Origin: Ectocarpus siliculosus
Taxonomy: Eukaryota > Sar > Phaeophyceae > Ectocarpales > Ectocarpaceae
Assembly: GCA_000310025.1 (NCBI GenBank)
Contig: FN649733.1
Location: 764,747-828,746 of the forward strand
Length of the DNA stretch: 64,000 nt
Direction of reading: 5' to 3'
Shown: positions 35,475-59,574 of the stretch, piece by piece
How the letters are laid out: each line of letters opens with the position of its first letter
Numbering within the stretch: position 1 is the first letter of the stretch
Program-made: the position numbers and the translations under genes
The notes under the pieces: generated by a model
What the model saw: only the letters and a program-made list of their open reading frames with translations
What the model was told of the DNA's origin: nothing
Database searches by the model: none

Positions 35475-37137
35475 TTGTTCGTGCCTAGATTGCAGCTACA
35501 TGCGCGTCAATCGAGATCGACGACATCACCACCTCCTCCGTAGATGATCCGAGAGCCGGGTGTGTCCCCCGAAGAGCGAAGGTCGAAGTCGAATCTCCGT
35601 AGATTTCTGTAGAAGATGATCGATGGCGTTGTGTGTCATGAAAAAACGATGTAGTTGAAAGCGATAGAAAAGGTCCTTCGGGACTCTGTGCATTCTTATG
35701 TGCTTTTTAAAATGCGGCGGGATTGTTGGGAGTGGCAGCTTTCGGACCTTGGGGGCTCTGTGCTTAAGAAAGTGCGGCGAGATTGTTGCAAGTGTCATTA
35801 CCCCAGCTGCTGCTGACTCTGCCGAAGTAAAAAACCCTATTTTATCTTCCGGAGTGCGTGTCTGCGGCATAACTCGCCAACGACGAACCCCATCCTGCGT
35901 CCGCGAACGCGCTTTTCTTCGCGTGCAGCAGTAGCTTGTTTTTCCCACATGTTCTTGTGTCTCCCAAGGCCTCGACGCCCATGTTTTTTCCTACCTTCGG
36001 AGAGGCTTCCCGTGAAGAGGGGCGGATGGCGTTCGTTGAGTCCTCACTACGACGAGGCAGAAACGATTTTCGAACGATTTCATACGCGGCAAAGTAGTAC
36101 TGAGTAGCCCGCGGATTGACCTCCCTTGCTACCGCCCGTGCAGGTATCATTTGCGTGGTTGTTGTGCTATGCAAAGGTGGGGTTTACTCGAGAGAGGCAC
36201 TCGCGGTCGCGTTCGTTGCCCTGATGTTGTGGCCTGGTTGGGGATAAGGTTCAGGAGGGTGCATTCTGACCTGATGCCCGATAATGCACATGTTGTCCCC
36301 CCTTTTTTTGGTCTCGTGCTGTCATCGTAGAAGTAGCGATGCTGGCGCTGCAACCCTGGGATTTGACGTGGCGTTAGCTCCCCAGTAGAACGATCAAGGG
36401 CGTGGGGAGAAAGCAAAGATATATGAGGTTTGTCTTCGCCTTGTTGAACGAAACTCATCTTCCTTCCAGTCGAACAACTATGCATACTGCCAGTGGTAAT
36501 AAACTTGTACAGCAGCAGTACGTAGAGCTTTCAACGTATCGTCTTTCACCACGTGTATGGGCCGTTCTCGTATTTCTCTTTGGGGAGTGTTGAAACTCTT
36601 AACTCTCATGTACAGTTGCAAACACTACACGTACGTGTTGTTTCGCCGGCAGCGTGACGCTTGCCTATACAGTATTCAACACGAAAGCCAACGCGTACAT
36701 CCTTACAGATCAAGTCACCGAAGATGCCTGCACACCCCAACAGAACGGCACCCCTGGTGTGATACGTGTTTTCCTACAAAGGAGTTATTGAACGCCACAA
36801 ATGGTATCACGGGGGGTGGTTGTTATCTTGCGTGGAATACGATAATACAGTAGTTAGTTGGGCAGGTGGTTTTTGGGTCAGGGTACGAACAAACAGCGCT
36901 CGAGCGTTCTGGCGCGACATCCACTTGACCTAATCCAGAGGTATATGGTCTTGTTGCAACATACATACTGCAGGCATATAGACACTTACTTGTGGCGCAG
37001 CGCGCAGAACTCCTCTGAGACGCCTTGTGCCAATGGGGTTTCCGCACATACGTAGGCGTTGCACCCAAAGATCGACCCAGTCGGCGGCCGTTGGGAAGAA
37101 TCGCAGGATCCATCTGCCTCTCTCTGCTCTCGTGGTG
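35475..37137. other. Intergenic space eIF2A to dual glycosyltransferase
   Basis: This 1.66 kb lies between tandem plus-strand genes. The left part should be the eIF2A 3' UTR. The right part should hold the promoter and leader of the next gene, and an unrecognised 5' exon there is possible. No conserved protein segment, tRNA or full transposon is visible. Confidence 0.5.
35672..35794. repeat. 72-bp imperfect tandem duplication
   Basis: GGTCCTTCGGGACTCTGTGC at 35672 recurs as GGACCTTGGGGGCTCTGTGC at 35744. The following TGCGGCG and GATTGTTG words are also repeated. It lies just after the eIF2A stop, probably in its 3' UTR. Confidence 0.7.
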
Positions 37138-40100
37138 ATGACGAAGCGTTGGGAGAGCGCAGAACCATGCAGTTACCGGCAGCGTGATGTTTGGCAATAC
37201 ATCTTTGCCACAACGGTGCTGATTCTTTCGGCAATCGCTCGTCATGGGGTGCTGCAGTCACCAGCAGTCGGAACCATCTTATTGCTGGGTACCACCGCGG
37301 CAGTAGAGACAGCAGCAGGGTTGGCGTCCACAGGGCACGGTGGCGGGGATCCAGGAGTAGGTCCATGGGCTGCTGCAAGCGACAGCGACAGAGACGAGCC
37401 TATGAGAGCGGGTTTCGATGATGTTGGGTACGCGGAGATTTTGGCACGCGTTCCAGAACGAGACCTTCCGGCGTACCAGGCGCTGTATCGCGCCGTTGAG
37501 TTCCATGTGAGACGATGGCGTCTCCGCACACGCGACGAAGGCACAGCATGTTCCTGGGCTTGCACGTCTTGATAGCACGTAGTGTTGCACCAACTTTGTC
37601 CACGCAGCAATAATCTGGTTTCGTGTCTTGGTGTGAGCGGTCCAATGCACTTTTGTTCCGGCATGTTTCCCCGCACCGTACATATAGTACACCAGATTCA
37701 ACATACCGTGTAGCCCACGCTGCACATGCGCATCAAAGCATACGGTACCTGTCAACTAAGCGTTATTCCACGACCTGTTCGTCTGATACTCTCTCCGGCA
37801 CAAAAACTGAAGGATCGTGGAGAAATCGACGCAGCGATCTCCCAATATCGTGTGGCAATAAACATGACGAACGACCTGGCATCCGCGTGGTTGAACTTGG
37901 GGCTGGCCCTCGCCATGCTCGACCGTGAGGATGAAGCTATCGACGCCTACAAGGTACTGTTTGGCCGCCGAGTGTGTTGAAGATGGCATGTGTACGGGCT
38001 TTGGTAGGATCCTCACGTATTTGGTAGGATCCTCACGTACTACTCCAGTACCCTCTCACGTGTGTGCCTTATACCTTACGATGCTGGTTTGTGTCTCGCG
38101 ATTCGACAGCACACACACGCACCACCACACACAGTGAGTGGGAGGTTTCGTTGGGATCAACAATCAGTGCTTCATCGACACATAGCAAACACAGCGCTGC
38201 GGTTGTTTACCACAAAGAGCAAGTACTAAGTCACACACTAGGCCACGGCCTGACCAAACACCCAAGCATGTATACACCCTCTTTACACAACCATAGTCTA
38301 TGGGCCTTGTGCACAACGCAAACCACGGTCCACGTGCACCGTCATGATGGAGGTTACATTGATTGATTGGCGATAACAAGGGTGCAATAGTTTTCTTGAT
38401 TGAATGGACGCAGGTGGGACGTATTATGAACCAGAAATGTGCTTCCGCGCTCCCGACATGTCAGGGTGAAGTCGGGCTGTCGGCCTTGAAACGAGAGCGA
38501 AAACAGCCATTTGCTGCCTGCCTTTACGAAATATTATGTACAGCATGGTGGTGGTGTCGTGGTTCGCGATGACCCACCGACAAGCAAACTAAAAAACCCG
38601 AAGCTCGCAATTTTTACCACTCTGCCCGGAATTCTGTTGTCAGCAAACAACATCCACCTGACGATTCGCTAGAAATACGTCTCTCACCAATCGATCGACG
38701 CCTAGGAGGTGACTGATGGATTTATCCTTCCGTTGGGCACAACGTCTTACCCCTCCCCAACGCCCTAATGCTTGGGACATCCATGTTGACCCAGGTTGTT
38801 ATCAAGCTACCAAACGCGTTGCCCATTGAGGTAGCTTCGGCGTACTGCAACCACGGGCACTTGGTGCAAACGCGCGCAGGAGAAGACTATGCTCTACTCG
38901 CAGAAGGGATTTCACTGTTCCAAAGGCACGTTTATCGCATACATACTTATGATTCTCTCTGCTTGAGTCAACCAACTATTGTTGTCGCCCAACCGTAATA
39001 AGTTGTGCATTCAGAGACAATCTGCGATCGGGCAACAAGTTCTCGTTTTTTCAAGGGCGGGCTACTTGATTTGAGTGGCCCACTACCGACACACCCGACA
39101 ACATTTCTGTATTGATTTCTGGCAGATATCTCATGACAATTCAAGCGTAGGCTTGCGTTCCTACACCAGCCCAATTCAAGCTCGCTGTTACCATCACAGT
39201 GATTGAGGTGTGCACCCAAAATATCAACTCTTGAATCCCAACTCACACCAGAGGTGGCTAACTGCTTCAGCAACATGCAGCATCACCGTCTCACGTCGAC
39301 AAGTGAAGTCACACCACCCGGATTTGCTCCTTCCTTGTGTGCAGGGGTCTCGAGAGGGTACCGGACCACTCAACCTGCTTGTATAACTTCGGCCTTGGAA
39401 TGGAAAAGGTGAGGAACGTGAATGGGAGGTAGCCAGAAGGGGCGTCCCGTACCTGAAGATGTATGCATATGGACACCGGGTGAAAATGTGACAACATGGT
39501 TCGATTCGTACCACCTTCGTTGATATTATTGTTACAGGCGTTTCCCTAGTCGTTCAGGCATGCATGTAGTATCGACGATAACGATAGCCTTCTCACGACG
39601 ACGACAAGAACAAGAACAACAACAACAACAACACGTGATCACTTAGTCCATACGCATTCTAAATTGAGTACTCACGTTCCACGAACTACAGCTCGGCCGA
39701 TACCCGGAAGCGAAGAACCTGTACACCCGAGCCGTGGGTTTGGACCCCTTCATGGGAAACGCCCACCTCAATCTAGGAAATATCGCCTTTCGGCAGGCCA
39801 ACTGGACGGAAGGGATACTTTGCTATGAAAGGTGGGCACGTGTTTTGACGTCTCTGCTGTTATACTTCTTGATCAAGTAATGGACGGTGTACGACGCTTG
39901 TCCCTATAGCGAGACTACAGGATTTCGCCAAGATTGCACCATCTCCTGCTACGTGGCGTACAACTTGCTTTGGATGCCCCCATGTTGGTGCTATTGCTTG
40001 TCACGTCGGTGAGAGAGTATGCCACGTATTGCATCACTTCGTGTTGCTCTGTTGCGCTCGTTTCCTTCGCATGACGACGCTGTGTGATTTGCTAGATGTT

Positions 40101-43100
40101 GCTGTTGATGTTGATGTTGGTACTGGTGTAAGTAGCGGTCATGGTTAGTGAGGGATAGTTGTGATGATTATTGTAATGTTGCTCATGTTTGCGGTTGTTG
40201 CCAACTTCATCACCGGTCATTGAACCGCAACACCTCCTTCATCACATGTTGTTATTTTTGTTGTTGTTCTGAACGGGACATACGACTTTACAGAGCGCAC
40301 CAGAGCCCGGACGCAGACCAGCGCCTGCTCACGGTTAGCAGCTTCATGCTCGGACAGGTATGAAGCCGACCGTCAACGCCAATTCTGTGCTCCTTCATCC
40401 CATTCAGCTTGCTTGAGAAGCGTTTTTCAAACAATCGAATCGTGATAAATCCCAACAAAATACTCTCATGCAGTCCAAGACATCGTTGATTTCCGCGAAG
40501 GACAGGCGCGCATCCACTGCAATCAAGGAGTCGGGCTACCGCACTCATCTGTCTGTAACACTGTAGCGCACGTCTCGGCTGGGTGTAGACTAAGGTAAAT
40601 AAACACAAGGTGGAGTCGCGAATACAGGACATTTCGCGGTGAACGTCTCCGGCGCTTCTCCTGTACGTTCAGGACGCATCTGTTGACCCACCAAAAGCAG
40701 AGGCGGTAGTCGCATCCCCACCTTGGTGGTGATCTTGGGAGAAGAGCACAACAGGACACGAGATCTTCTTCTAGATGTCCCGCACACCATCAGCCCGGTT
40801 TCTGGGAAGATAACACAGAAGCACCTCTTCCCCTCGATTGACGTGGCAGAATCAGTGATGATTGTACCAACCCCGGTTTGGTCCCTAACCCCGAATGACT
40901 TGCTTTTGGGGACCGAAAATTGGCGAATCAAGCAAGAGAAAAATAAGAGGAAGGAAAGACCACGCGCCAGTCAAAAATATTTCCATAGAAAAGCACCCTT
41001 GAACATGAGCGCCGTACATCGTGGCTGTCGAACTTGCTCGAGGTATAGCTGCATCGTCACGGCATCGGGAACGTACGGAAGGCCGTCGAGTACTACAAGA
41101 GGTCGTACGACACCGACAACACCTACAAGGATGCCCTCTGCGCCATCCTCCAGGTGAGCTCAGAATCTGAAATTGCTGCATCCCCGCTTGATCTGGGTCG
41201 AAATCGTTAACCTCTCTACGGCCAGCGATCCACACGAACAACCCACGAGTCGTTGTTCCCATCGTCAAAGACGAGCAAGCCGAGAACACGGATCAGTCAA
41301 GCAAAACCGTGAGAGTCGGGCACCAGATCTCAAAATGCACGCGCACAGGAAGTGTCCCATCACGAAGTGAACCGGATGTGCGAGTAAGCTGAAACGAAAC
41401 TACGGCAATATTTCTGTACGTTTGCTTTCCATCCATTTGCCCCAAGTCTCTTCGATCGCTTTGCCTGTGGGAAGGGTGGGAGTCCCTCGAGCCCCGGGTA
41501 GCGTCTGCCATCATGGATCAAGTTTCGTCGGGCAAGGAGCCCGGGCCCCAGTCCCCCTACGAGACGCGCTTGACAGGTGAAGAAATGGTTAAGCTTAACA
41601 CCTTGCAAAACCCACATGTTCCAACTCCTTGGCCGCGCACCACACATTGTACATACGCTCCGCTACCATGCAGTTCGAGAGTTGGCGGCGGGGGGGTGGG
41701 TGGCGACCCTAATCGACGTGTTGTGTAGTTTTTCTTTCGGAACACAAGCTGGACACGCATCCGCACAAGGGAAAGACGCAGCCCGTGGTGGTCTATCCGA
41801 CCAGGCAGGTAGTGCGCCAAACGAAAATCACCTTGAGGTGACCGGTGAGTCGCGGGAAGGAACGGGAAGCGGAATCAACTTACCAATATGTCCCAAGAAC
41901 CGCTCGCAAGGCCGATTTCTGCACCTTAACCTCACGTTTTCGTACCGTCGACACTTTCGAAGGGCTTGACTACAACCCGCTGTGGGACTAAACCTAGACT
42001 ATTTTTGTTGTTTGAAACCAATCCAGCCAGCATCAAACTTGTCTCGTATTTTGATTTCAAACAAACGCGCCACAAAACACGATTAAAAAACAGGAGAACT
42101 CAAGCCATCCCAGCACCTGGGGTTGGCCCGGCTGGCGTCGCAGCAATTCGACCGTGTCGAGCGTCTGCCCCTTCCGGAGGACCACACACGGAGGCTCTCC
42201 TTCCGACAGGGAGAAGCATTGGGACAAGGGCGCGGGCTCCAGCAAGACTCGATCAGCTTCGACGAGTGGCTGAGAAGGCAGGGCATCGAGGCAGGTGACG
42301 GCAACGGAGAGGAGGCGGGGCCGCGTGGGGGTGCGTCGGTGAGAAGGCGCGCGGCAGCAGGAGGCGGGCTCGTGGTGGCGTACTGGAGCTACGACTACCG
42401 CGACCATGCTATGGGACACCTGACCAGAGGGCTGTTCTGTAGCCACCAGGTAAAGAAGAGGTTCGGCCCGTTGGAACGGCGCGGGCTAGCGCCCCGCCAC
42501 GAACTCCTCGAAGAGATGGTTAGCCTCCCGATTGTCCCTCTTGCGGGGGAGAATCATTATTTTAAACACCACCAAAGACGTTTGAGACCCATCGGTGAAG
42601 CCTGTTGTGGCGCGTACCTTGTATATTTGACACCGGTGTGCTTCGTGCCGTCAGCCAAACCGGATACGAAAAAGTGTCCTTTGTCCGAAGGGTTAGCAGA
42701 ATGCGTATTGCGTTCAAAGCTGGAATTAGTGGTTTTCTCCGCGCCTCTTTTGGTGGCGTGTTTTGTGGTAAGCGTGACAGTTGATGTTTTTCGCCCACCA
42801 CGGATGTAGAAGATCGGGGTCTGAACGGAACCGAAAAAGAGGAGGGAGACAGACAGGGGCAGGCGACGAGGGGACGCAGATCGGTTATTTTTGGAAGCTC
42901 AGTTTTTTTCCTGATCACATGTCGTGGTATCTATCAATCCCACACGAAACCTTGTACCACGTTTTTCTTTGGTCGATCCAGTTGGTTCGTCCGGAAGCCG
43001 GAGGTACTGGGAAATGCTGAGAACTGTATTAATAACGACAAACAATGAATCAATGTACAATCCGTTTCCTTGGTGGTACTTGGTTGCACAGGCCCACAAT

Positions 43101-46100
43101 CGAGTATTCGCTGTGGCCGCTTCGTACGGACACGACGACGGGAGCCCCGTGCGTCGCAGCGCAGAGAACTGCGCAGGAAAATTCCTGGATGTTTCTTTGG
43201 CAGGACACGCGGAGTCCGCCAAGGCAGTAGCGGCCGAGCGGCCCGAGATCTTTGTCGACCTCATGGGACACACGACGGGAGCGAGGTGGGTTGAACGTCA
43301 GGTGGCGTGCCTTCGTGACTCATAAACCGGTTGAGAGTTGATGTATCGGGTCACAACTACACCTTGCTGGCGGAACTAACTCCTCAAGAAGAACCGCCGT
43401 GAATGAGATAATAAGTGTACCACTAAAGAGTAACCGTTAGTGCAAGAGACGTTCCGCAAAGGAGATACACCAAGAAGGAGTTATTGCCACAAAGAAGAAT
43501 CATACGCAGTACAATCTACCCTATCGCTTCCCATGTGTTACAATGTTTCGTGTCCATGTGTTTGGTACAGGCCCGGCATTCCGGCCCTGAAGCCGGCTCC
43601 AGTGGTGGCGAGTTACCTAGGATTTCCCGGAACGGTAGGAGCTGAGTACACCGACTACACCATCGCTGACAGGGTGAGACAATAAACATCGTCCTGGCTC
43701 GTTGTTGTCCACTTCGTCTGAGAAACTGAGAATCAGCGTGGTAAATGTGTCTTCCGTTTGTTGTCGTCTTTTCGTCTATTCTTGATATGGTGGTGTTGTA
43801 TTTGCTGTAATTTTTTGCAGCCGACCAACACTGATGACCTCCATACGCATACAACCTGCTTGTTTCCTTCAGACGACCGTCCCGCCCGAGCTGGCAAACG
43901 TCGGGTTCTCAGAAAAAATGGTCTACCTTCCCCACAGCTACCAGGTCAACAACTACAACGTGTCGTACGGTTTTTGCCCCGGGGGGGAAGGTCTTGGAGA
44001 ATGCCAGGCTTCCGTCAGGCAAGATTTTTGGCCCGTGTAGTCCATTGAATCGTCTGGTACACATGCGAGCGTCACCATAGTAAGCAGATTTACTAGGTAG
44101 CGCCGGCAAGCAGCAACGCGATCGAGCGCAGTTGACCGGGCGGAGTAGCACGCGTAGCTCCCGTATGCATACTCTGGCCAGAGAAGCACGCGCCATTTGC
44201 ACGGCCGAGAAGCACACGCAGCTCCCCCACCAAGCATGACTACCGCAGTTCGAGGTAGACCTTAGCGAATGGAGGCCAGCTTGAACCAGGTTTGGCAGAC
44301 ATTTTGCTGGGCAGGCAAGCAAAGAGCAGCAGTTGCGCAGTGGAGTTCCACTTTCATGTCAGAGTCAACAAGAGAGCATCGGAAACACACACCAACACGA
44401 ACGACAGCGGCACGGCGCTGAAATTGATTGTTCGTACCACGATAAGCACTTGAACGGGCGTTCTGGATGTTTGCCACGCACTGCCCGATAGTCCCCCCCT
44501 CCCATCATCACGTTCCTAGGAAACGCTTCGATGAACGACCTTTCGCCAAACGGCGTCGTCTCACACTACCCCACGTCCCGATCGGGCGATGCAACCCCAA
44601 ACGTTTTCTTTCACCAGGAAATCAAGAGGGCTAGATGGCTTCCTGGACCCTTGGGGGGGAAGAGGGCCGGTCTTATGCAACTATAACAGCATCCACAAGA
44701 TGGAACCCGAGTCCTTCACAGTCTTCATGAACATTCATCAAAAGGTGTCCGCCATGCAAAGTCGATCCCCCTGCAAAAGTAAGCACCGAAGATGCCCCCC
44801 CCCCCCCCCGCACATGTGACAAATCGGAGGAGAGTAGACCCCACATAGTTGGGGAGTGTGAGTTGTACAGGAAGGAAAGAGAGGATCTCGAGGAGGAAAT
44901 GAGACAGAGAGGGTGTGACATGGACAAGTTTGGTACATTAGACAACAGCGAAAAAACGATCGCGATAATTGGGGATAGATGGTGGGCACAAGAGGCCCTA
45001 GAGGACGGGGATAAGATGTGCAAGAATTTTTTTATGTAGTTTGTGGCAGAAACGTAAAGAGCTCCCAAATGTTGGTGGTGTCTCTAGTAGGGGTAGGAAC
45101 GGTGCTCCGTCTCGAAAGGGACGCGTGGTCAATGGTCAAATGACTACGGCAAGCAACAAATGAGTACGCCCCCCCCCCCCCCGACCACCTTATACACTGT
45201 CTCCCTCCCTAATCCACAAAAAACATCCCTATACCCCNNNNNNNNNNNNNNNNNNNNNNNNNNNNNNNNNNNNNNNNNNNNNNNNNNNNNNNNNNNNNNN
45301 NNNNNNNNNNNNNNNNNNNNNNNNNNNNNNNNNNNNNAAAAAAAAAACCAGGAAAGCCCCCCCCCCCCCCCCCGCCCATGGGAAAAATGGGGGGGGGGGA
45401 GCCCCCACATATTTGGGGGTTTTGATTTTTCCAGAAAGAAAAAAGAGGTTTTGGGGGGGAAAAAAAAAAAGAGGGGGGGTAAAATGAAAAATTTTGTTAC
45501 TTTAAAAAAAAGGAAAAAAAAATTCGGAAAAATTGGGGAAAAAGGGGGGGCCCAAGGGCCCCTAGAGGGGGGGGAAAAAATGGCCAAAAATTTTTTTTTT
45601 TTTTTTGGGGGAAAAAAAAAAAAGGTCCCCAAATTTTGGGGGGTTTTTTTTTGGGGGGGGGAAGGGGGTCCCTTTTCAAAAGGGGGGGGGGGTAAAGGTT
45701 AAAAAGATTCCGCCAACCAAAAAAAGGGTCCCCCCCCCCCCCCCCCCCCCCCCACCTCCCACGGTGTGTTTGTTCGGCTACAGCAAAACAGTATCACCTG
45801 GGATCGTGGTGACGATTTGTTTTGTCCGGCGTTCGTACCGCTTTGTTGCGAATGCCAACCTCGACAATGGGGTAAAGAAGGGCGATGGGTTTCATACGGG
45901 AGGGAGGGATATCGCTTACTCCATGTCGAGTTTCGTGTCCTTGGAAGTAGCAGAACTGACGTCTCTTCAACCCGTGGCATCCTCCACGAACCGACCGTGC
46001 CTGCGATACGAATCAGCGTCGACCACGAGCCTAGAACAAAGTGATTTCGTTTCGGACGGCGGGAACCCACGATGGTTCGAGTTAAGCGCCTGCTCGAGCG

Positions 46101-49100
46101 ATAGCACACGCTAAGTTTTCCGGCCCCAGAAGGAGACAACATATTGACTTGATGATATTTCCGGGCTCACACCACACGCCGGGTGGGGATGGATCGAATG
46201 TGTGCTCCAAGCTGTATGTCACTAGCCACCACCCAACAATGCTGTTTAGACTACCGTCTAACACCACATCCACACCCGTCATCCGACTCAAGCAGCACAT
46301 CGATCGTTAACACCGCATCCTACTCGTCAGAGTCCCCGGAAGCGTCTTGTTACTGCTAGGCTCTACACGCGACCCAGAAGATGGCGTGGAGGTCAACCTT
46401 AAGGCGGAGGCGGCTGCGATGGGTGTGCACCCGGATAGAATAAGGCTCGACGAATTGCTGACACGACAAGAACACGTCTGGGTAAGGAGATCCAGAGATG
46501 TACAGGCAAACGCAAACTGATTTGTGACTTCTAGACTTTTTCATAAGTCCCCTTAAACCGCTCGCTCTTGGGATTGGTCTAGTTTTGGGTTGAAAATCAG
46601 CAACGGTGGTTCGTGCTTCAAGTCATTCGATCTCTCCTCTCGCCCTGTCCTCTTTCTGTCAAATCCTTCCCGTTGATGCCCCCTGCGATGCAACGCGAAG
46701 CGCGTCAGCGGCTCTTGCGACCTGTTTGTCGACAGCTTTGTTTACGGCGCGCACACCACCGCGGCAGACGCTCTTTGGGCAGGATTGCCACTCCTCACGC
46801 TGAGAGGCTACGGCGTAGGTGAGCCAATACCGCCTAGTACGCGTTGCGACGAAAGAACGCGTAAAATGAACCTGAGCAGGGTAGCTGGATAGAACACTTG
46901 TAAGAATACGAGTTATCGCATACCCCCTAGACCTCATTCAAAGCTCGATTGGTCCATAACTAGGTGGGTGAGAAAACTTGACCGATGTGTGCAAACAAGG
47001 AAAGCAAGCTCTCGACGAGGTGTTTCCAAGACCACTCTTCCAGGCGTAGGTGTCCGCTTGCTTGTGGGGTCATTGAGCTGTGAAAGCCGGCCTTGGGGGG
47101 GGGGGTGTACTCATAGTCGTGCATGCCGTAGTCGTTTGACCATTGACCTCGCATCCCTACAAAGCCGGGACGGAGCACGCCGGGTTCTCACCGGACCAGG
47201 CTCTCACATCACCAAGCGCGAAGCGCCGTGAGGTATTTGGCGAGTCGCATGAAGGGTGAGCTGCATCCTGCTAAGGGTGTTCGGCATCTTGTGCTTACTT
47301 CCTTGCGTACGGATGACAGCTACGTATGACTTAATTTTTTTTTTGGTGCTTTCACTTCCAGAGACAGTTGTAAGCACTGTGTAACTGCCTCGAGGAAGCT
47401 TGACCATTTTAACACAACGTGGTGGGATCATCCCCCGTTGCGGGGAGGGAGGTTTCTCGACCCCCCACAACATGATCTACTCGACCACCATTATGGCTAC
47501 CCCCAAAAAAAAAAACAGAGGTAAAAAAAAAAGACGGTAACCTGGTTGCCGAGTTCACGAAGTGAATTGGCTTTTTTTACAACGTCGTTCCCAATGGACG
47601 AAAACCCAATCCCGATGGCAAACACGGAGTGGGGGGCTTGTTTTACAAGGTGGTTGCCAATGGAGGAAAACCCAAACCCCGATGGCAAACCCCGGGGGGG
47701 GGGGGGGGGATGATTCGCACTTTTACGATACTCATCGGTCGGAGAGATGTCTCTCAATGAACACCGAGAATGGTTTGTCCACAAACTGTGGTCCTCTTTT
47801 TATGTAACCTAGATCAGCAGGAGAACGTATGCACGTTGTACACATGTTGTCACCGTTTATTGGACGGCGTTCACCTACGAACGGCCTCATCGCCGCGACA
47901 TGGTCGAATTTGAACTACTCAGGGATGAAACAAGTTGGTGCCCCCCCCTCTTCCCCCCCTTTGGTGTTCCGCCGCAAGAGGGATGCATGTCAACGGTCAA
48001 AAGACGATACCCCTCCCCCTCATTCAGTCTCCTCCGCTGGTTTCCTTTTGCCACCTCGTCTACTTGCAGACGACACGCCGGCAGGGCAGATGTCAGGCCG
48101 CGTCGGCACGTCCCTACTCTCGGCGTTAGGCTTAGACGAGCTTTCATTTCACAGCGTCAAAGACCTCGAGAACGCGGCGGTGGCGTTGGTGCAGTCTCCG
48201 GGGAGGCTGGCAACCCTGAGGAAAAGGTCAGAACAAGTGGTAGCACGCCTTGGGGGGTGCTGCAAATGCTGTTCACTTCGTACTTCGTTGTTTCAGGCCA
48301 CGATCCTTGTTGTTCGTGCTCAACACTCATGAAACATGCTGAACATTTCTGGTCATGTCGCGCTTGTTGTTTTTAAGAATAGACGCGGCCGCTTGCGGCG
48401 GCACATCTGGCATCACTCTCTGAGAGGGGGTAAGCAGCGGCATCATACCGCGAAAACAAACGCCATGCTCGCGTGCTTTGGTTTGGCCGCCCGGTTGTCG
48501 AATTTCTTCGCCGACGACGAGATTGCGGTCCGCACAGAACCCAACATAGATTTCACGCCGCGTCACAAGTTTCGCACCTCCCCCCCCCTAGTAGGCTAGT
48601 GCAACCGGAAGCAGATTGCAACCGTCAAACTCCGGTAACCTCTTTGCGTCTTGTAAACCTCATCGATGCTTGTCAATGCATTGCGCCGTTCCAGGCTCCT
48701 GTCGAGGGCGATGAACAGCCCCCTCTTCGATACACGCCTCACCACGAGAAACCTGGAGAGGGCATACGAGGCCATGTGGGAGCAGAGGGAGTTGGGGCTA
48801 CCACCCAGCCACATAGGTAACCGCAGTCTGCTTCAATCGTACGTAACACCATTTTGAAGTAGGTTATTGTGTGAGCTGCACATGCAAGCGGCCCCCCAAC
48901 CCCCGACCCCGTCTGAAAGAGGATGCATGGCGTTCCCGACACCAAACAAATCAGGGCCGCATGCATAGGAGACGAATACGTGTCCAATCCACCCGCCCAC
49001 TCTCGTCCAGAGAAAGCATGTGACGTTCGCTGGAAGACAAACGGGAGGAGAGAGGAACAGCATCCGATCCTCCCATCCCCCTTCTACTGTCTTGATGCTT

Positions 49101-52100
49101 AGTGCACCTCTTACAAGACAACCCCCCCGCCGCCGCCCCCCAACCCTTCTCCGGCCGCAGTGGTGGACCCGACGCAGGGCGCTTTGCCCCCCTTACGGCT
49201 ACCATTCGACGAGGATGATGATTCTCTACCAAGCGGCAGCAGCCGTGGTGCACCGTGGAACAGGGGGATCAACGACGCAGGGGACCAGGTGACTACAGCG
49301 GCCAAGGGTATGGTCGCACGCGCGGTGGAGGCGGCGATGGTGTGGGTGGAGACGGGGACCACGGAGGGTGTCGAGGACGCGCTAACGGCCACGGGCAGGC
49401 TGCTGGCTGGCGACCCACTGAGCGCTCAAGCTTTGCACATGAGGGGGGTTGCTCTGCACTTCCTGGGGAGGTGGGCCTCGCGCGCTTCGCGAACCGGTGG
49501 TGTGCTTGTACTGCCGCGCTGTTTTTCCGCGATTTTTAAACCCTGGATGCAACAACCAATCTTGTACTTCATAACGTCCTACTACGAAGAGTGCGATAGG
49601 CAAATGGATGGGGTGGTGCGCTCTGTGTAGGAAACACACTTTGTGATTCTCCCGTCTACACGTCCCTTGAGCGACGAGCGAAACAAGGGATTCGACCCGC
49701 TTCTCCTACCGGCATAACGCTTCAGCCTACTGTTTTGATGACATCAGTTAATGATTCCCCCCAAAAGTGTGGAAGAGGGTCTAAAAACGAATAGCGTTGA
49801 ACGAACGCATGCCATCAGTCGCATAACAAGTGCACTTCTGTTAAACTGCGTATCACCAACATCTTATGGGGCGAAGACAACATGAACAAGTTGTGCTTTC
49901 TGTGAAGGTGCCAATTACGTGCGTCTCACGGCTTGGATACGCCGTTTGCTTCATGATTCATAACAGGAGTACGGAAGGAGTCGTTTTCATGGAGAGAGCG
50001 GCCTTGTTGGCCACATCAGGGAAACTTAAGGAGCCAGGCCTCGACGTTGCGATGCTGTGGAGAAATCTGGATGCAGCCCAGCATGGTAAGAGGAATCAGA
50101 AATAATACGGAAATCGGGAGGGGGAGGGAAAGAAAGTACAACAACGACGGGTGGTTTCGTTCCAGCAGTGTGTCACGAGTAGGTGCCCCAACGTGCCATA
50201 GTCGTCGTCTTTCTCTCACCGGCGTTTGGGGAGGACGGAAGGCGATCTCGTAGCAAACACGAGACACAAAATGGTCCACGCAGTGCCTGTAGTGTGGTCG
50301 TCCAAGGGCAATCACCTTCTGGTCGCAAGCGCGATCTACAAACCCCCTCTTATTATTTGGAGAAATCCTTGCGGCAAGCACGTGGTGAAAGGGCAGCGCG
50401 CCAGAATATCTCTGTTTGAAAGGGCGGATCGTGGTTGCTCGGACGTCAAGCCAAAGCACCAACTGAGTACACCCAACGCTCCCCCGCACCATCACCACTT
50501 TCCTCGCCCGCCGACCCCCGTCAGCAATAGCCGAAGGAGACGGCCTGTCCTTTCCCCCCGAGACGACCAACGCGCCTTTCCTCAAAGGCTTGGCCGTGAG
50601 TCCTTCTCGCCTACCAACACCCCTGCTCATCGTCCTGAGACGCTACTGGAGAAGGGGCGACCACACCGCGTGTGCCGGCGCCTTCTGGAAGCACTGGCCG
50701 GGGTTGCGCCGGCATCTGCCCGGTGGGGCAGTCGAGAGCGCCGGCGAACGACGCGAGCACGACCCTCCCCCGGGGGGTGACGAAGAACGCGGCTTTGGGG
50801 ATGGGTGGGCGTGGGAGGCGTGGCACGGGGAGGATGCCGACGAGGTGGCAGGAATCCTGGAGGCTGCGGCGTCGTGCTTCGTGGGACTCGGGAGGTCCGT
50901 GGTTTGAACTTTTACTCGTTCATGTAGTGGGGGGAGGGGGGCGGGGGGGTGGCTTTTGGGGGCAGGGAGTACACGCGTGTGTTTGCTTGTGTTTAATTTT
51001 CGAGGATTCGCGACTCTTTGCATCCTAATCAAGGCGAATTTTTGCACGAGTCACGCTTTCCAGTGAAATACACGATGAGTCTTAAACGTTGGTTGTGTTG
51101 TCGGCGCTTTTACAGCTGTTCTTCAACCAGTGCACCACTGGTGTAGTGGTCAAGTACAATATTCGGTCCAGCATTGCGGCGGGCGGTGTGCAGTTGTGCT
51201 TGAGTGAATTGTCGAGCGACGGCCTACCTCTGTATCACCGTACAACCCCGCTAGCTCGCTGCCTGTAATGATGATCCTCGTGAACAAACACCTACTTGCG
51301 TTACGCTCTCCAAAGGCTGGAGGAGGCGTGGAGGGCGTGGAAGCTTGCCTCCGAGACACAGCCAGGTGAGGCGACAGCGGCAACCAGTTTCAGGATGAAA
51401 ACAGAAAGAGACACGGTTTAGATGCTGTGGATTTTCTGTTTTTGCGGCTGGCCTTTTTTGAAGAGATTCGATGGTCGTTTGCAGAGTCACAGTAGTACTG
51501 TGCTAGACATAGTGTTCCTCTTTCCCTGGTCCTTTTCCACTCCTCCCCCTTGCATATAGTGGCGGCCACAACAATTAAGAATATGGCGCAACGTCGTAAG
51601 CGAGAGGGCAGTGCATCAAACAGATAGAAACGTAAAAAGACGCTCGGGACTAATTTCGAAAAGCTGAACACATTGTCGCTCCTCGTCTGAAGGGGCGTGT
51701 GGTCAAAGTTCCGATGAATCCCAGGGGAAGCCAACAAGTGAGTAACCCCCACCTTTCCCTCTTACTTGTACTCAGGCAACCAAGAGTTCCCCCTTCGGTA
51801 CGCGGCCTGCCTCAGCAGCGCCGGACACGTCGAGAGGGCTCACCGCGAGCTCAACAGAGCCGTCAGGGCACTCAACTATGCCTGGTTTCATGAAGAAGGG
51901 GGTTCAGTCGTGCCCAGATTACCTCGCCCACGGAGGGGGGCTGACGGTGGGTACGATAGAGTCGCTTGCGCGGGGGGATGGGGGGGCGTGTGTACTCATA
52001 GTCGTGCATGCCGTAGTCGTTTGACCATTGACCTCGCATGCCTACAAAGCCGGGAGGGAGCACGCTGAGTTCTCACTGGACCAGGCTCTCACATCACCAA

Positions 52101-55100
52101 GCGCGAAGCGCCGTGAGGTATTGGGCGACTCGCATGAAGGGTGCGCAGCATCCTGCAAAGGGTGTTCGGCATCTTGTGCTTACTCCCTTGCGTACGGATG
52201 ACAGCTGCGAATCACTTAATTTACTTTCGGGTGATTTCACTACCAGAGACAGTTGTGGGCACTGTGTAGCTGCCTCGAGGGTGCTTGCCCAATTCAACAC
52301 AACGTGGTGCGATCATCCCCTTTGCGCGGAGTGAGGGTTCTCGACCCCGCACAACATGCCTTGCTCGCTGTGTCGGCTACCACCAGCACTGTGTGACACG
52401 AGAAAATTCCGTTGTCGATTCACGGTCGGAGGTAAACACCGCTGAATCCCCGTCCTGTACATGACTATAGGCAAGCAAGAGAGCCCACCCTTTCTTTTCC
52501 TCGGGGCAACGCACCCACACAAACACTACAGGCCAACCCCTTCCCTTGGTGGTGGCGTTCTACTGCTTCGAGTACGGCAACGCCTGGTTTCCCAACTGGG
52601 GCCCTTCAAGTCTCGGGCAGGGGTTAGGGGGTTCCGAGGAGGTGGTAATCCACTTGTCGCGAGAGCTGGCGAAGCTCGGGTTCTGGGTGGAAGTCTACGC
52701 GGACCCTATCGGGAACGATGTCGGGAGAGATCGCGGGTTCGAAGGGGCGGAGGACGGGGGCGCGGGGGGGGTGGTTTGGTACCCGTACAAGGCGTTCGAT
52801 GTGTCTCGCCCCCCCGACGTGTTCGTCGCGTGGAGGTGAGTTGGAGTCGAGATTAGCTGAACTGCAGCGAAGCCAGGGACGGGCAGAGAGATAACATGGA
52901 TTTGCTTCCCCTGGACAACGAGAGCCGATGGTCCATGCCGATTCATGGTCATAGCCATATACTGTAAATACGCAGGAGGAGTTTTTGCTATGGCCTTGTT
53001 TGTGACTACGAACGAAATTTCGGGATAAGCTGATGTGTGAAGATAACAGATTGAAAATATAACCGTTCACCGGGACAGAGCGCCCCGACTTTATTGGGGA
53101 GATCATTGCTTTCGATCATGCCTTCCTGCCTTCAGCCTTCATGCATTATTTCTAACATCTGCCAGGCGGGAAGATCTGCACTTCAGAAATGATTGCCTCC
53201 ACGACGACGGCAACACTGCTGTGGTGGGCCATGGGCGGAACAGATAGATAGGGCAGGCTTTCGGCGTACCTTCTTTGCATTTTCTTGGCATACCACTTGA
53301 CCCCTTTTGAGAATAGTGCTCGTTCCTGCCAAAAATTTCCGTCAACAATACTTCTGTAATTTTCCAACCCTGATCAGTGGTTTAGTCCCCATGCTCTCTC
53401 CAGCTTTTTTCAACTGATTGCGCAGTCTAAGAAACTTTCAGACCCTTTTCTGACAAACGCGACAGCACCAGTGTTTTACGATGATTGACCCATTGAAACC
53501 ATGCATGGGATCAAGAATGCAGCGGGTCGGGCACCCCCATTTGTCTCACACGTCACAAACTCGTAACACGACAGGTATCAAGTGAGCCTACACCTTGCGG
53601 AGGGCAGTGGCCGCCGGTTCCTCTGGCTGCAGGTGAGCTGAAAGACAAACCGCAAGCTACACAATTAGAAAAAAGCTTCTTCTTCATGCCTTTAATGCAT
53701 CTGGTGTCTGGGTGAGGGGATGAAAATCAAACGTATGGTAGTTACGAAGTAAACTGAGTCAAAGAGCAGCGGAGAGAACGCGCATGGCGTGCAATTAAGC
53801 ACACCAACCCGTATGCACCGTGCGGATGTTCGGCGCTGCAAAATGTCTGGTTTGACTGAATAGGTGGCCTTAATTATTGCTTGGTTGTCTCTTTACTATC
53901 TATCTATTTCTGTCTCTTGGTTCCTCGCCGTCCCTTCTATTGCATTTATTACGATGTATACCCTGCTTTCAAGTTAAAAACGTGAGATAAAACGCTGGAT
54001 CACGTGCTTCTGTCTGGAAACCCCCGGGCAGACCCCAGTGTGTAGACGGTCTCATTGCATTCCCTTGTGAAGAAATTCACTTCCACCGACGCTACAATTC
54101 CAAGGATACCCCCGTGTTCCTGCATCAATTGCTCGCTGGTCGCCGCAAAAGTTCACTTGCTCTGGTACTGGGCTTACTGTAGTTCAACCTGTATCCGGCG
54201 CGCGTCAGGAATGCCCCAAATCATCAGCTATGTAGAGTCGGCTTTCGAACGAGGTCCATAGGGTGGAAATGTGGCCGACGGTGGGTTCCAACTTTAACCG
54301 GTGCCAAAGGGTAACGTGGTGAAGCACGACACTGCACTCAAGAAGAACTTGTTAACCGCGCTCACGCCACAAAACTGCTGAATCAGATCTTAGTGTTTCT
54401 GATCGTGACGTTGGAGATGAGCGTTTTAAGGAGATTCTGGCACGAAACGGTCGTAAAGCAATCAATGTTGACTATGACGCCCGCACGTAGGATGTACTGG
54501 AAGATCCGTTATCCACGGGCTTCGCGGACAACCTGGACGGTGTTTTCTGCCCCAGCCTGTACCACGTCAGCGTGATCCAGCCGGAAGCTTTGCGGTCTCT
54601 TGGCCGCGTGGTAAGACCAGTCTCCGCCTTCCGTGTGTTGTTGCTGCCGCCTACCCGCTCTTGCATACCATTCAAGGAAAGAACACGTATTATTTAGCAC
54701 ATACGCAAACCCAACGCGACGCTATAGGCCGTTGGGCTATGCCCGCGAGAGTTCGGATCTCTTCGTCGACGCCAATATGGAGCCCTTAACTCCGGGTGCG
54801 CTGAGAGTCCGGCGAGTGGTGGCTGTGACCTGCCACTTGAGGCTGGCTATTTCCTTCGCTGCTATAGGGCGAGGGATTCCAAGTGTGACCGAGCGAACTC
54901 AGTCAAGCTAGCGTGGTGCGGAGAGTGGGCGAGCCTTGGTGGACTCATTTTCCCGGCCTGCTAGATATTCATCAACCATTCGCAGCTCTTGGGAAGCACC
55001 ACGATCTATTTTCACAGATTCATCAGATACTACCCTTTGTGTACATGTGTCAGTACTTCCTGAATCTCCGCATCCTGGCCTCCACGTGTTGTGCCTTTTG

Positions 55101-58100
55101 TTTTTGTTGTCCAGACTTTGCCGATCGATGCAACCAACCAATCATTTGACCGTCTCTTGCCTGTTGATCAATAATATTGTCAACAGGTTTCGCTTCGGAT
55201 GGATGTATCTGTCCGCAGCCCCCCCCCCTTCCCATTTCCCCAACTTTTGTACCCTCCACCCGTTTGTTTCGTTCTCTGGACACATTCCAGCGCCCCAGAC
55301 ATGTCTCTAGACTAATATTCCATCACATATTCCAAGTGCTTTGCCCCCCTCCCTCTTTCTCTCTGGACAGCTGCCCAACGGGATCGATTCCAGGATCTTC
55401 TCAGACGGTGACAACAGCCCAGATCTCTTCGTGTACGGGAGTGCGCCCAACAGAGGCCTAAGCGGGGGTGAGAGGCCAGCTGCATGAGCGCGCAGAAAGC
55501 CTTGTTACAGACACACTTTACGCATCGTGCATCGTCGTCTTGAGCTGGTCGATGCAGCATATCTCATCTTGGTTCTGCCCGCTCCATTTTTTGGGAGTTC
55601 TCGCAATCTTTCTGGACGTGTCGATAATTTCGTGCACGAGCCTCATTTCGGAGAAATAGGCCTGAGGCCACAACGATCCATGTGTTGTCCGTGGTCTAAC
55701 ACGATGCATGAAAGTGCAGAGCAAGAGTCCACAACAACGGCATGTGTTGCAAAGACAAGAACGAGAATATCCTGAAGACAAACAACAACAACAACAACAA
55801 TGACAACTCGTACGTGTTGGCTGAGAGAAACATATGCCAGACGATCACATTTTCGCGCATATCTATGTACCTCGCAACCGGTAAACAACCCATGCTTTCT
55901 ACACCGCACGTATCTTTCGTCATCAACGAACGGTGCCCCGCAAATTTCAAATTTCGTTCCCCTCGCCCTCTGCTCGAAGCCGTATGTATATCATTATCTC
56001 TCTTGCTTCTGCAGCTAGCCCCTTCTTTTTTCACGCTCCTTTCACTTTCCCGCGGTACGCCTCTCGTACCTTGTGTTTTCCCTGCCCCCCCCCCCCCCTC
56101 CCCCGCACGATCGATGTCCTACGGCGGTTGTCGCATGCAGTGTTGTTGATGTGGCCATACATCCGAAGCCAAATACCCACAGCAACCTTGGAGGTGAGAG
56201 TGGTAAACACCGTCTGACGTGATACCCTGAATGATTTTTTCTCCGAGACAACTAAATAGCAGCAAGCGTCACAGGAGAAAACCAATACATGGAGTTGCTT
56301 CATGGGGGCGAAAACTTTAGAGAATGCAGCGCTGACGAAAACTTATGAGAATGCGGTGCTGACGGGTTTGGAACACCAGGGCGGTTCGGGACATGTATCC
56401 ACCACATGGTGGACGTTTCGAGCATCGGAGGTCGCCCCCGGTGTCTGACGGAGTCTTGACATTCTTTGGAACTGCAGAGTAGGTGTAAGGGGTAAATTCC
56501 GTGCTAGAACTCCCTTGAACAACAAGTAAGTGTGTGTGTCGTAGCCACTTTTGGGGTCGTATGGGTGGAACGTACTGGGCCAAATAGACGAAGTTTATTG
56601 AATTTTGTCCTGCATTTTGTGCTAACAACGTGATTCAGAGGTCGTTGTTCTGACTTTCGTATCAGTCAAGCCTCCACTAGTTATTTAAGAGCACATGTGC
56701 ATATGTATATGCAAACCCTTCATCGCTACAAGGTAAACCTCTTGAAGAGTGTGGCAACAACAGGTTTTTCTTAGCGAGCCGCTTTGGGTCGCAAGAACGC
56801 TGTCACGACGAGGTTCCAATTCCGGCTTCACCAACTACTACATGGACTGCACACACAGATGCACACTCGCTCTCTCTTAGTACTTCTTTTGTCCAGGATT
56901 GATGCGATCTACCCTTTACTGGCGTTCTTGCCAACCTTGTTGCGCTTTAACGCCACACGAAACCCCCCATGTCCAACGGCAGATTATGCATCTTCTTCTC
57001 TGGAAACAAACTGAAATACTAAATCGGAGTCAATAATAATTCAGGTATACTATGGCTTCAGCGACAACTTTATGGAGTGGGCGAAGACCAATGTGAATGG
57101 TGTTGATGAGTGGGTGGCGGGCATGAAGCGCCTTCTGGACCAAGAGGGTATCCTCTATATGGGTGAGTGGATTTTCTTGTCGAAAGTAGAGGTCAAGATC
57201 GACGAGGAGGCGTGATAACCACACACTTTTAAGCACGGTTGACATATGCGTCGTGCGTCAACATCAACTTCCTGTGGTACCTAAATCGTTGCAACTAGCG
57301 TGAAAACGTCAAGAACACGTGCGCTGTAGGTAATTCCGATCGTTCAGCCAAGGACCGCGACAAGAAGGAACAAACAGGATTCCCTAAAAATAGTGTGCTT
57401 TGTTCTCTCGTGGCGTCTCACCCGCACTGGCCGATGGGTTGGCTGGCAGGAATGGTCGACCACCAAACGCTTCACGACGCGTACGCCCGGGCGGGATTCG
57501 TGCTCTACCCAACGTCCTTTCCAGGTGAGCTATGTCCCGTAGTTTGTTCAGGACGAATAGATCCAGATAACAACCAAATTTGTGGTTCAAACAAGTGCAC
57601 GCCCACAGCTCAAGCAAGGGAGTGCACGGTTCCCTCAGCGATTTTACGGTAGGTGGCCAAGGCAATCAACAAGTGAATGCCCACCCCCCACCCCCCCATT
57701 CGACTCCCATCTCGCGTTTTACAGAGACGGGGTGCGTGTCTCTCATTAAGGCCATGGCGATGGGGTCCATCCCGATCACGAGTCGATTCCCGACATCCAC
57801 CCTTCCGGAGTTGACAAACCAGTGGGACATGGGACCCCCCGAGGCCCTGGCCAGCCACCATTTGGTAAGAACCTAGATATGCATAGTTTGGTCCGATACT
57901 GTCATTTTCTCGGTTGATCTGGTGTGCTTCCATCAAATGCCATCCACATGTAGCACAGATGCGCAGAACGGTCTGGAACATGCACCTGGTCTTTGCCATA
58001 CTTCGTCACGGCCTACGTTCCACTTCCACCAGCAGTACCTTTGCAACTGCTGCTTCAAAACCGCTCCATCAAAATTACGCCTGCAAGCGCTTGAACAACT

Positions 58101-58743
58101 CAACACTGCATACAGAACTCTACCAACCGGTTGGTTGTTGCAGTCAGAATGTCCCCGATGTCGTTCCACCCAGTAAAAAGCACCAATAACCTCCAAAACA
58201 CCAACCGTCAGCCTTCGGTATCTCGTACAGTACATCGTGAGGTAGGTCCTCATCGTGGGGTATTGTCCCCTCCCCCGCCTATGCTCTTACTGTGAAACCC
58301 CTCTTGGATGCCATCTTGTTGCTTCCCGTAAACAGCTACCAGAGCATGACATGCCTTGGTTGGAAAGCTGGGCCAGGGCAGTCGTGCACGCTTCCAAGAC
58401 CGATACCTCGGAACGAATACGCCAAAGGGGGGCACCAAAAGCAGGCACCCGATCGGAAATCCCCGGAACGGATGCTAGCGAAAGGGGTGCCAGAAAACAC
58501 ACCAAAGGGGCGACTGCTCACGATGGTGACCGGGAACACGACGCCTCGCAAGGCTTTGAAAGTGTTGTCGGTCAAGGACAACGTGGTCGCTTTGGATGCG
58601 TGCAGGACCGGCGGGAAGATATGAAGGCCGCCGTTAGAGAGCGGTACGCCTTCAGCTCGACGGCAAAGCTTTGGGCGAGGGAGATGACGGGGGAGAGCGC
58701 CGACGATCGGCCTCAGGGGGGTACTCTCCTGTTGAATTCATAG
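37138..58743 (+). CDS. TPR-GT41-TPR-GT4 dual glycosyltransferase
   Basis: Thirty-one exons whose phases join into one frame of about 1641 codons: 37138-37506, 37813-37953, 38795-38925, 39345-39408, 39692-39831, 40294-40357, 41049-41153, 41447-41576, 42094-42449, 43092-43285, 43571-43673, 43873-43964, 44618-44778, 46333-46481, 46701-46818, 48070-48226, 48695-48816, 49161-49470, 49967-50085, 50588-50894, 51316-51365, 51776-51946, 52532-52835, 53575-53632, 54491-54610, 55371-55467, 56141-56193, 57045-57162, 57450-57524, 57725-57864 and 58336-58743. Order: hydrophobic N-terminus, TPRs (about 125-340), GT41 O-GlcNAc-transferase domain (465-865), TPR-like region (900-1184), GT4-type domain (1190-1590). 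No stop or start separates the two enzymes; LPPSHI runs straight into VVDPTQG across a phase-1 intron. Weak points: the start codon, the 43964/44618 junction, and the end of exon 13 (the family alignment favours 44744, phase favours 44778). The donor at 38926 is GC. Confidence 0.82.
38001..38040. repeat. 20-bp perfect tandem duplication
   Basis: TTGGTAGGATCCTCACGTA is present twice in a row at 38001 and 38021, in the intron 37954-38794. Confidence 0.9.
39611..39633. repeat. (AAC)n microsatellite
   Basis: A short AAC array in the intron 39409-39691. Similar arrays occur at 13556-13590, 19400-19418 and 55779-55801. Confidence 0.8.
44813..45182 (+). mobile_element. LINE 3' end (RT C-terminal tail, oligo-C end)
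   Basis: Plus-strand frame from 44813: a Cys-starting tail with RPHIVGECELYRKEREDLEE, then KFGTLDNSEKTIAIIGDRWW, ending in a stop near 45039. This is the acidic C-terminal tail that follows reverse transcriptase in many non-LTR elements. A shifted frame then reads NVGGVSSRGRNGAPSRKG and VVNGQMTTASNK, so the copy is broken near its end. It terminates GAGTACG followed by about 15 C. It sits in an intron of the glycosyltransferase gene and is truncated at its 5' side. Confidence 0.65.
45183..45752. other. Assembly gap (100 N) with degraded flanks
   Basis: The N run is 45238-45337. The right flank (45338-45752) is a homopolymer-smeared version of 44775-45182: the order of landmarks such as CCCCACATA, GGCCCTAGAGG and the final C-run is kept while most bases are collapsed into runs. 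The left flank past the C-tract (45183-45237) resembles a smeared version of the good sequence after 45752. This looks like poor reads through a poly-C tract from both sides rather than real DNA. Confidence 0.75.
47095..47474 (-). mobile_element. Oligo-C-ended element, long copy A
   Basis: Read on the minus strand it runs from CATGTTGTGGGGGGTCGAG to GGTCAAACGACTACGGCATG, GAGTACACCCCC. It is close to 51972-52358 over its whole length of about 380 bp, and its last 90 bp match the LINE ends in this window. It lies in the glycosyltransferase intron 46819-48069. Confidence 0.7.
49161..51946 (+). other. Middle TPR-like linker of the dual enzyme
   Basis: Exons 18-22 link the two catalytic parts. 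TPR-like helices are seen in ALTATGRLLAGDPLSAQALH and MRGVALHFLGR, in FVGLGRLEEAWRAWKLASET, and in RYAACLSSAGHVERAHRELN followed by RAVR. Between them is a Pro/Arg/Glu-rich stretch with no clear fold. The donor after 51946 (G|gtgggt) was picked because it is the one that keeps phase with the next exon. Confidence 0.65.
51972..52358 (-). mobile_element. Oligo-C-ended element, long copy B
   Basis: It pairs with 47095-47474 in the same orientation inside the same gene. Both share CCTCACGGCGCTTCGCGCTT and CTCTGGTAGTGAAATCAC-type blocks. It lies in the intron 51947-52531 and starts 25 bp after the exon end. Confidence 0.7.
52532..58743 (+). other. GT4-type glycosyltransferase domain
   Basis: Exons 23-31 encode a GT-B fold of GT4 type. 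The N-lobe has LVVAFYCFEYGNAWFPN, then LGGSEEVVIHLSRELAKLGF with WVEVYADP, VFVAWRYQVSLHLAEG and FCPSLYHVSV. The C-lobe has LPNGIDSRIF, APNRGLSGVLLMWPYIRSQI, VYYGF, GGMVDHQTLHDAYARAGFVL with YPTSFP, and ETGCVSLIKAMAMGSIPITS. The C-terminus ends with AVRERYAFSSTAKLWAREM, the usual terminal helix. GT4 enzymes transfer sugars from nucleotide donors with retention; the donor and acceptor cannot be told from sequence. In the EX7E motif the first Glu is present (ETGC) but the second position is Lys. Confidence 0.85.
55779..55801. repeat. (AAC)n microsatellite
   Basis: Seven AAC units in the intron 55468-56140. Confidence 0.85.
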
Positions 58744-59574
58744 CCTAAGGACTGCCCTAGGGCTACATCTATTTCAGTGCAAGTTTCAGCGGGGAGCGCT
58801 TGAGATATTTTCAGCTAAAGGCTAGCGACGGTGTGATCAATGGATTTCGACCGTATCGCCGGTTTCGTTATCTCCCCCACCTGCTGACAAGTGCAATAAT
58901 GTGCCGTTTTCACTTCACGAACATTCCGTGTGCTAGCCGACTGACAAAACAAAGTGTCACATACCAGTTGAGGGAGCTGAAAAACCGGATGCAACCGCCT
59001 CAAGGTGTGGTGTGTTTTCGAGGTTGTCTTCGTACGTACGCGATGAGTGGTGTAAGTAGAAGCTAGCAAACCATGCTGTTGACCGGCTTCGTTGTTGCCA
59101 TCGTTTTCTTGATTTGTCTGCACCCTAAATATCGCTGCTCCGGTGACTGCGTGTATGCCTAAAGTTATGATAGGCTCCTATTCGCCTCATCCGTACTCTC
59201 GATTGACGGGTACCGCTACGCGATATCTGAGACACACGTAGCAAATCAACAGAGCAGAGGACATAAGAGAAAAAAAGGCCACGATTTCTTCCAAATAATC
59301 AGCAAACAGCGACCTATCTATCCCCATGCAAAAACCTTCGACTACAGCCAGAACGGCCGCTCGTTTCTACGTACTGAACTGAAAAACACCACCACTTGTC
59401 GCCGTAGGCATTACTCACTTCAACCAATAAAAACACCCGAACAACTACAAAAATTAGCCACAAACTAAACGCTGAACAATTATTTCTTAAAAATGATGAA
59501 CTGGCACACAATTCCAAGGAATTCAGGCACGAAGAGATATAAAACCCTCTCTCGAACAAAGGTCACGTCTGTCT
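58744..59574. other. Convergent intergenic space
   Basis: These 831 bp lie between the glycosyltransferase stop (plus) and the NAA38-like stop (minus). They probably hold both 3' UTRs. Nothing else was recognised. Confidence 0.6.

Follow-up and report, generated by a model that had tools for sequence, protein, structure and literature searches.

The question raised by a 64,000-nucleotide stretch of Ectocarpus siliculosus DNA (assembly GCA_000310025.1, contig FN649733.1, positions 764,747 to 828,746 of the forward strand; hereafter the window) is whether one gene of this brown alga encodes two glycosyltransferases on a single chain. An initial annotation, made from the letters alone, had proposed such a gene at positions 37138-58743, with tetratricopeptide repeats (TPRs) and a family 41 glycosyltransferase (GT41) fused to further TPRs and a family 4 enzyme (GT4). 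The reading preferred here, with a moderate degree of confidence, is that of one gene and one chain, in which a hydrophobic segment, TPRs, GT41, a linker, degenerate TPRs and a viral-type GT4-like domain follow one another, and whose two enzymes would transfer sugars sequentially.

The first step is the gene model itself, for which positions 36500-60000 of the window were read. As initially described, 31 exons on the forward strand over 37138-58743 join without an internal stop into a frame of 1,650 residues with a single terminal stop. The modelled protein begins with a hydrophobic N-terminus and continues through TPRs, GT41 and a weak second TPR region to the GT4-like domain, encoded as follows.

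37138-37506, + strand: exon 1, with a hydrophobic stretch at residues 21-56 (from the model and hydropathy)
37813-41153, + strand: exons 2-7, first TPR array (Pfam TPR matches)
41447-48816, + strand: exons 8-17, GT41 catalytic domain, residues 339-853, ending in LPPSHI (PF13844 and PDB matches)
49161-51946, + strand: exons 18-22, degenerate TPR-like region (Pfam, below cut-off)
52532-57864, + strand: exons 23-30, GT4-like domain of putative GT-B type (weak Pfam matches; identity to, and fold of, a viral relative, L085)
58336-58743, + strand: exon 31, C-terminal tail with the stop at 58741-58743 (from the model; coding score just 0.05 bits per codon)

By codon weights, the modelled frame is the top-scoring of the three in all 31 exons, 30 of which were also in the training set. 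The 30 introns have a median length of 470 bp and a mean of 555 bp, and the guanine-cytosine (GC) content of the window is 53%. For comparison, PMC12477816 gives medians of 524 bp for Ectocarpus autosomal introns and 1,302 bp for intergenic distances, and PMC6418280 gives mean introns of 530-740 bp and a GC content of 54-56% for three brown algae. There is no second copy of the gene in the window, as none of the 31 tblastn matches falls outside 37000-58800.

The identity of the first half is clear. Its TPR array (residues 1-338) matches TPR_2 (E 6.2e-18) and TPR_16 (2.5e-16) in Pfam, and the GT41 domain reaches 189 bits (E 1.5e-55) against PF13844, where the cut-off is 25 bits. A PDB sequence search with the GT41 part yields 19 distinct sequences at E 0.001, headed by the O-glycosyltransferase 5a01 (1.5e-48), followed by human-type O-GlcNAc transferase (OGT) chains at about 7e-48 and SPINDLY at about 1e-20. 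The SPINDLY-type O-fucosyltransferase was rejected as the nearest GT41 of known structure, with its chains scoring 77 bits against up to 169 for OGT; bacterial GT41 domains score 192-235 bits (15 rows listed), a rough comparison since query and database differ. Seven positions of human OGT which we take to be catalytic or UDP-binding (H498, K842, H901, H920-T921-T922 and D925) are all kept in the algal domain, namely the His in DHAMGHL, the Lys in NSIHK, the His in QEHVW, and the HTT and Asp in AHTTAAD; the same residues are found in 20, 21, 20, 14, 18, 21 and 12 of 21 aligned rows, respectively. Like OGT and the bacterial TPR-GT41 proteins, the algal protein thus has an N-terminal TPR array and a complete GT41 with the conserved His, Lys, HTT and Asp, and it differs from them in its N-terminal hydrophobic segment. 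Azospirillum GT41 domains are 37.5-41.5% identical to the algal one among the matches listed (383-residue query), while a single-protein search of viral contigs with the algal GT41 found no near relative. Brown-algal genomes carry around ten GT41 genes each, none of them near the plant O-fucosyltransferases, and the donor sites of some have been modelled as favouring UDP-sugars, according to PMC11468063.

The second half is more divergent. Its TPR-like region (residues 854-1194) gives only TPR_19 (E 2e-4) and TPR_17 (1.9e-3), both under the Pfam cut-offs, and residues 1195-1650 reach none of the GT4 cut-offs, scoring 22.3 bits of 28.5 for PF13439, 18.6 of 27 for PF13692 and 13.5 of 26.4 for PF00534. 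A PDB sequence search with this part has no match at E 0.001, and a single-protein search of viral contigs with it found no near relative. The domain is called GT4-like here because its own Pfam scores miss the curated cut-offs. Its nearest relative is L085 from IMG/VR, with 37% identity across 309 columns, and a structure model of L085 built from 40 aligned sequences has a GT-B fold (mean predicted local distance difference test, pLDDT, 90), with sucrose-phosphate synthase, PimA and glycogen synthase as the best PDB matches (TM-score 0.60-0.67). It is through this relative that the last algal domain is recognised as GT4-like, with a GT-B fold as the likely one. Relatives also vary in how well Pfam recognises them: the viral protein L001 (Podoviridae sp. 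ctKR88, UOF78238.1) passes two cut-offs (41.8 bits of 26.4 for PF00534 and 37.6 of 27 for PF13692), and L085 passes none (24.9 of 27). The proposed TPR-GT41-TPR-GT4 layout is therefore strong in its first TPR array and GT41, and weaker than claimed in its second TPR region and GT4. What had been called a full GT4-type enzyme is better described as a GT4-like domain, below the Pfam cut-offs and with an altered EX7E motif, considered below.

Whether the halves belong to one gene turns on the junction between exons 17 and 18, for which three further features are needed.

48817-49160, + strand: intron 17, the junction intron, 344 bp, phase 1 (splice-site scores)
48855-48857, + strand: TGA ending the GT41 frame if intron 17 is retained
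49161-49309, + strand: linker at the start of exon 18, ahead of the first in-frame ATG (49310), partly acidic (coding score)

The phase-1 splice said to carry GT41 onward exists as the join 48816|49161 and is in frame. The accompanying statement, that a GT41 normally ends a few residues after LPP-HI, fits the unspliced algal frame, which stops 13 residues past LPPSHI and 16 past LPP. An open join is nonetheless weak evidence for fusion, because 15 of the 48 nearby GT-AG pairs tested (4 donors by 12 acceptors) keep the frame. Position weights derived from the introns of the model place the junction donor TAG|GTAACC 26th of 30, a weak score, and the acceptor 14th of 30, an average one; decoys score as high as the junction sites in 9.6% of 1,019 GT and 10.1% of 839 AG dinucleotides.

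The abundance of in-frame pairs and the weak donor weigh against a join, as do several other observations, and most of them speak for two neighbouring genes on the same strand. In that case the TPR-GT41 gene would end at 48855-48857 or continue into a different 3' exon, the TPR-GT4 gene would have its own start in or before exon 18, and the joined model would be an artefact. An Azospirillum GT41 open reading frame (ORF) stops 12 residues past LPP, so the unspliced algal ending would be a normal one, and an Azospirillum plasmid has ORFs for TPR-GT41 and GT4 as neighbours. The ATG at 49310 stands directly before the first TPR-like repeat, and ATGs at 48711 and 48774 (inside exon 17) or 48666 (just before it) could start a transcript that uses the donor at 48816. 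Coding signal does not set in sharply at exon 18, because 60-nucleotide in-frame windows straddling the acceptor score 0.06-0.10.

The linker argues in the other direction. Forty-nine codons of exon 18 precede the ATG at 49310, and with weights from the other exons they score 0.24 bits per codon in frame; the two remaining frames give -0.03 and -0.16. Among 442 exon windows the in-frame value stands at the 46th percentile, and in a leave-one-out comparison it is equalled by none of 1,784 open intron windows, nor by any of 148 with a GC fraction of at least 0.58; these windows omit introns 13 and 17, overlap, and come from one gene alone, and so are not independent tests. A start at 49310 is therefore unlikely, since the codons before it look coding in one frame only. 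The same open frame just before the acceptor (49103-49160) scores -0.18, other open windows in 48855-49160 range from -0.64 to 0.26, and the unspliced GT41 tail is intron-like (-0.26, over just 12 codons). Two genes would leave 306 nucleotides alone for a 3' end, a promoter and a first exon. None of the five first-exon candidates in 48855-49160 (an ATG with a phase-1 donor, assuming the acceptor at 49161) has a good donor: they score -6.5 to 2.1, whereas the junction donor reaches 4.3 and the 26 accepted donors, counted without the junction and three doubtful ones, reach 3.6-12.2. An intron-sized 344 bp separates the halves, against medians of 470 bp for introns of the model, 524 bp for Ectocarpus autosomal introns and 1,302 bp for intergenic distances.

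One gene is thus favoured over two because the exon 18 linker looks coding and no credible separate first exon is found, which falls short of proof of the single gene initially claimed. Taken together, the simplest reading is splicing of exon 18 onto exon 17, and fusion of the GT41 and GT4-like halves in one gene appears likely from these sequence features; two separate genes seem unlikely, though they deserve consideration. Alternative transcripts, with intron 17 spliced to give the fusion in some mRNAs and retained to give GT41 alone (ending at 48857) in others, would fit the weak donor and the availability of either ending, and are judged rather improbable. Fusions of sugar-pathway enzyme genes have been reported in brown algae: in PMC6418280, FK-GFPP of Cladosiphon and Nemacystus combines two such enzymes and is backed by mRNA, although these belong to other families and to nucleotide-sugar synthesis rather than to glycosyl transfer.

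Comparison with bacterial and viral proteins bears on how such a chain may have arisen. Relatives of the GT4 domain were taken as the best 80 of 213 from a scan of genome contigs, together with 65 from a viral scan. Among viral GT4-bearing ORFs, 54 of 89 also match the GT2 domain of L001 and none matches GT41; domain order and TPRs were examined in part of this set. Among bacterial ones, 14 of 87 also carry GT2 and three also carry GT41, the latter being the following.

L067, bacterial ORF of 997 residues: TPR-GT41-GT4, in the same order as the algal protein
L056, 1732-6036, cyanobacterial ORF of 1,435 residues: GT4-TPR-GT41-DUF4915 (DUF4915 complete, E 1.2e-140)
L029, bacterial ORF of 1,103 residues: GT4-TPR-GT41 (TPRs by eye only)

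All three resemble the algal protein in having GT41 and GT4 on one chain; L067 alone has them in the same order, and it lacks a second TPR region between the enzymes. Bacterial GT41-GT4 chains are apparently rare. In the phylum of L067, 164 of 299 genomes match (with generally two candidates scored per genome), and among the matches listed the query's own gene alone covers both domains; in that of L029, all 118 genomes match, and among the matches listed only the query's own is full length. None of 99 matching plasmid records covers 80% of L067, and among 40 GT41-bearing ORFs at the examined loci only three copies of the L067 gene carry this GT4.

The viral proteins L001 and L085 have two glycosyltransferases per chain, as in the alga, and their GT4-like domain belongs to the same clade as the algal one. 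Their first enzyme is GT2 rather than GT41 and their genes are intron-free. L001 has TPR matches between its two domains, as does the algal protein, whereas L085 has no TPR match at E 0.001. In a tree of 58 GT4 domains (a quick method with midpoint root and no eukaryotic rows), the algal domain pairs with L085 (Shimodaira-Hasegawa-like approximate likelihood ratio test, SH-aLRT, 95) within a mostly viral set of 14 rows (98). The GT4 domains of L067, L056 and L029 sit in another clade, together with two rows from Azospirillum (99). This placement speaks against a shared origin with the bacterial GT41-GT4 fusions. Since the algal domain falls among GT4 domains of viral type and away from the bacterial ones fused to GT41, the algal TPR-GT4 module was probably joined to GT41 independently. 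GT41 and GT4, like the pairing of two glycosyltransferases on one chain, already occur in prokaryotic and viral sequences; a viral-type GT4 behind GT41 in an intron-rich eukaryotic gene was not found named in searches of the open-access literature.

Two other arrangements were encountered among the bacterial sequences. On the Azospirillum plasmid (L003), the GT4-bearing ORF and the TPR-GT41 ORF (4797-8657 and 8626-10554) are convergent and slightly overlapping, an unfused counterpart of the combination. Five long bacterial frames of 2,279-3,781 residues (G107:C92 with 3,781, G131:C153 with 3,213, G147:C483, G119:C379 and G087:C141) each contain two GT41 matches, and are apparently tandem TPR-GT41 units, to judge by matches that agree in frame length, contig and strand.

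What the chain might do can be approached from its families. GT41 enzymes are inverting and use their TPR superhelix to hold a protein, onto whose side chain they pass the sugar of a nucleotide-sugar donor; GT4 transferases have the GT-B fold and a retaining mechanism. In the algal protein, the first TPR array would hold a protein substrate, GT41 would move a first sugar from a UDP-sugar onto Ser or Thr, and the GT4-like half could then extend the same glycan by a second sugar. Alternatively, the second TPR region may hold another site for the GT4-like half to act on. PDB chains of OGT stop approximately 3-17 residues past the match and those of SPINDLY 64-96, while the algal chain continues through a linker and a TPR-like region into another glycosyltransferase.

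Some points tell against two-step synthesis. Well-studied OGTs add one sugar, in the cytosol and nucleus. Furthermore, the algal EX7E motif reads ETGCVSLIK, that is E-x7-K, with Lys in place of the second Glu. The motif and the weak GT4 family scores would both suit a fused chain in which one domain is inert or acts on another substrate, the GT4-like half being, for example, a regulator, a scaffold, or a glycosyltransferase for lipid or polysaccharide. The Lys looks like a subfamily trait rather than decay, because near relatives share it. A regular expression captured the motif in 81 relatives, of which 75 have Glu and six have Lys at the second position; five of the latter (L001, L086, L128, L014 and L005) rank among the 20 best-scoring ORFs, and L085, missed by the expression, has the same Lys. 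The predicted GT-B fold of L085 and the conserved GT41 positions also argue against an inert domain. A fused chain without two-step action is a real possibility all the same, at somewhat below an even chance, and is compatible with the fusion. Bacterial and viral chains with two glycosyltransferases make the algal chain plausible, and show neither a common substrate nor an order of action. Two-step glycan synthesis by the algal chain may be proposed from its domains.

The N-terminus adds a further consideration. Hydropathy windows above 1.5 begin at residues 21 and 38, and this segment could possibly anchor the protein in a membrane or be a targeting signal. The true start is uncertain because the coding score of exon 1 stays near zero or negative up to about codon 54. 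The full proposal of an independently assembled, membrane-anchored two-step protein glycan synthase, whose GT41 would start an O-glycan on a protein bound by the TPRs for extension by the viral-type GT4, is a doubtful one, with a low probability.

Some details of the locus remain to be described. The donor of exon 3 is a non-canonical GC (38925|gcacgt). The placement of the exon 12-14 boundaries is uncertain where they adjoin an assembly gap, with 25 in-frame alternatives at junction 12/13 and 10 at junction 13/14 when GC donors are allowed.

44747-46330, + strand: intron 13, containing a gap of 100 N, ends uncertain

The gap is flanked by two versions of one stretch (44795-45094 and 45359-45658); the second is 71% alike, has its bases smeared into homopolymers, and is an apparent assembly artefact. 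The cleaner copy encodes a stretch resembling the C-terminus of a reverse transcriptase of the type without long terminal repeats (non-LTR). A 300-base repeat, 92% identical between 47094-47393 (intron 15) and 51979-52278 (intron 22), is probably a transposable element. In the flanking regions at 32200-37151 and 58800-63751, no neighbouring gene gave a Pfam match at E 0.001 in six frames. Elsewhere in the window, a Pfam search of 10 of 111 longer open stretches had ribosomal L6 as its sole match, and the open stretch at 5960-6475 corresponds to the N-terminal part of cytosolic ribosomal protein uL6/L9.

Modification of the O-GlcNAc type is generally viewed as one sugar that is not lengthened further. 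If the preferred reading of a single two-enzyme chain is true, the coupling of GT41 to an extending enzyme would provide a route to longer protein glycans in a multicellular lineage. The occurrence of two glycosyltransferases per chain in viruses, in bacteria and here in a eukaryote points to a modular solution that may have been reached several times.

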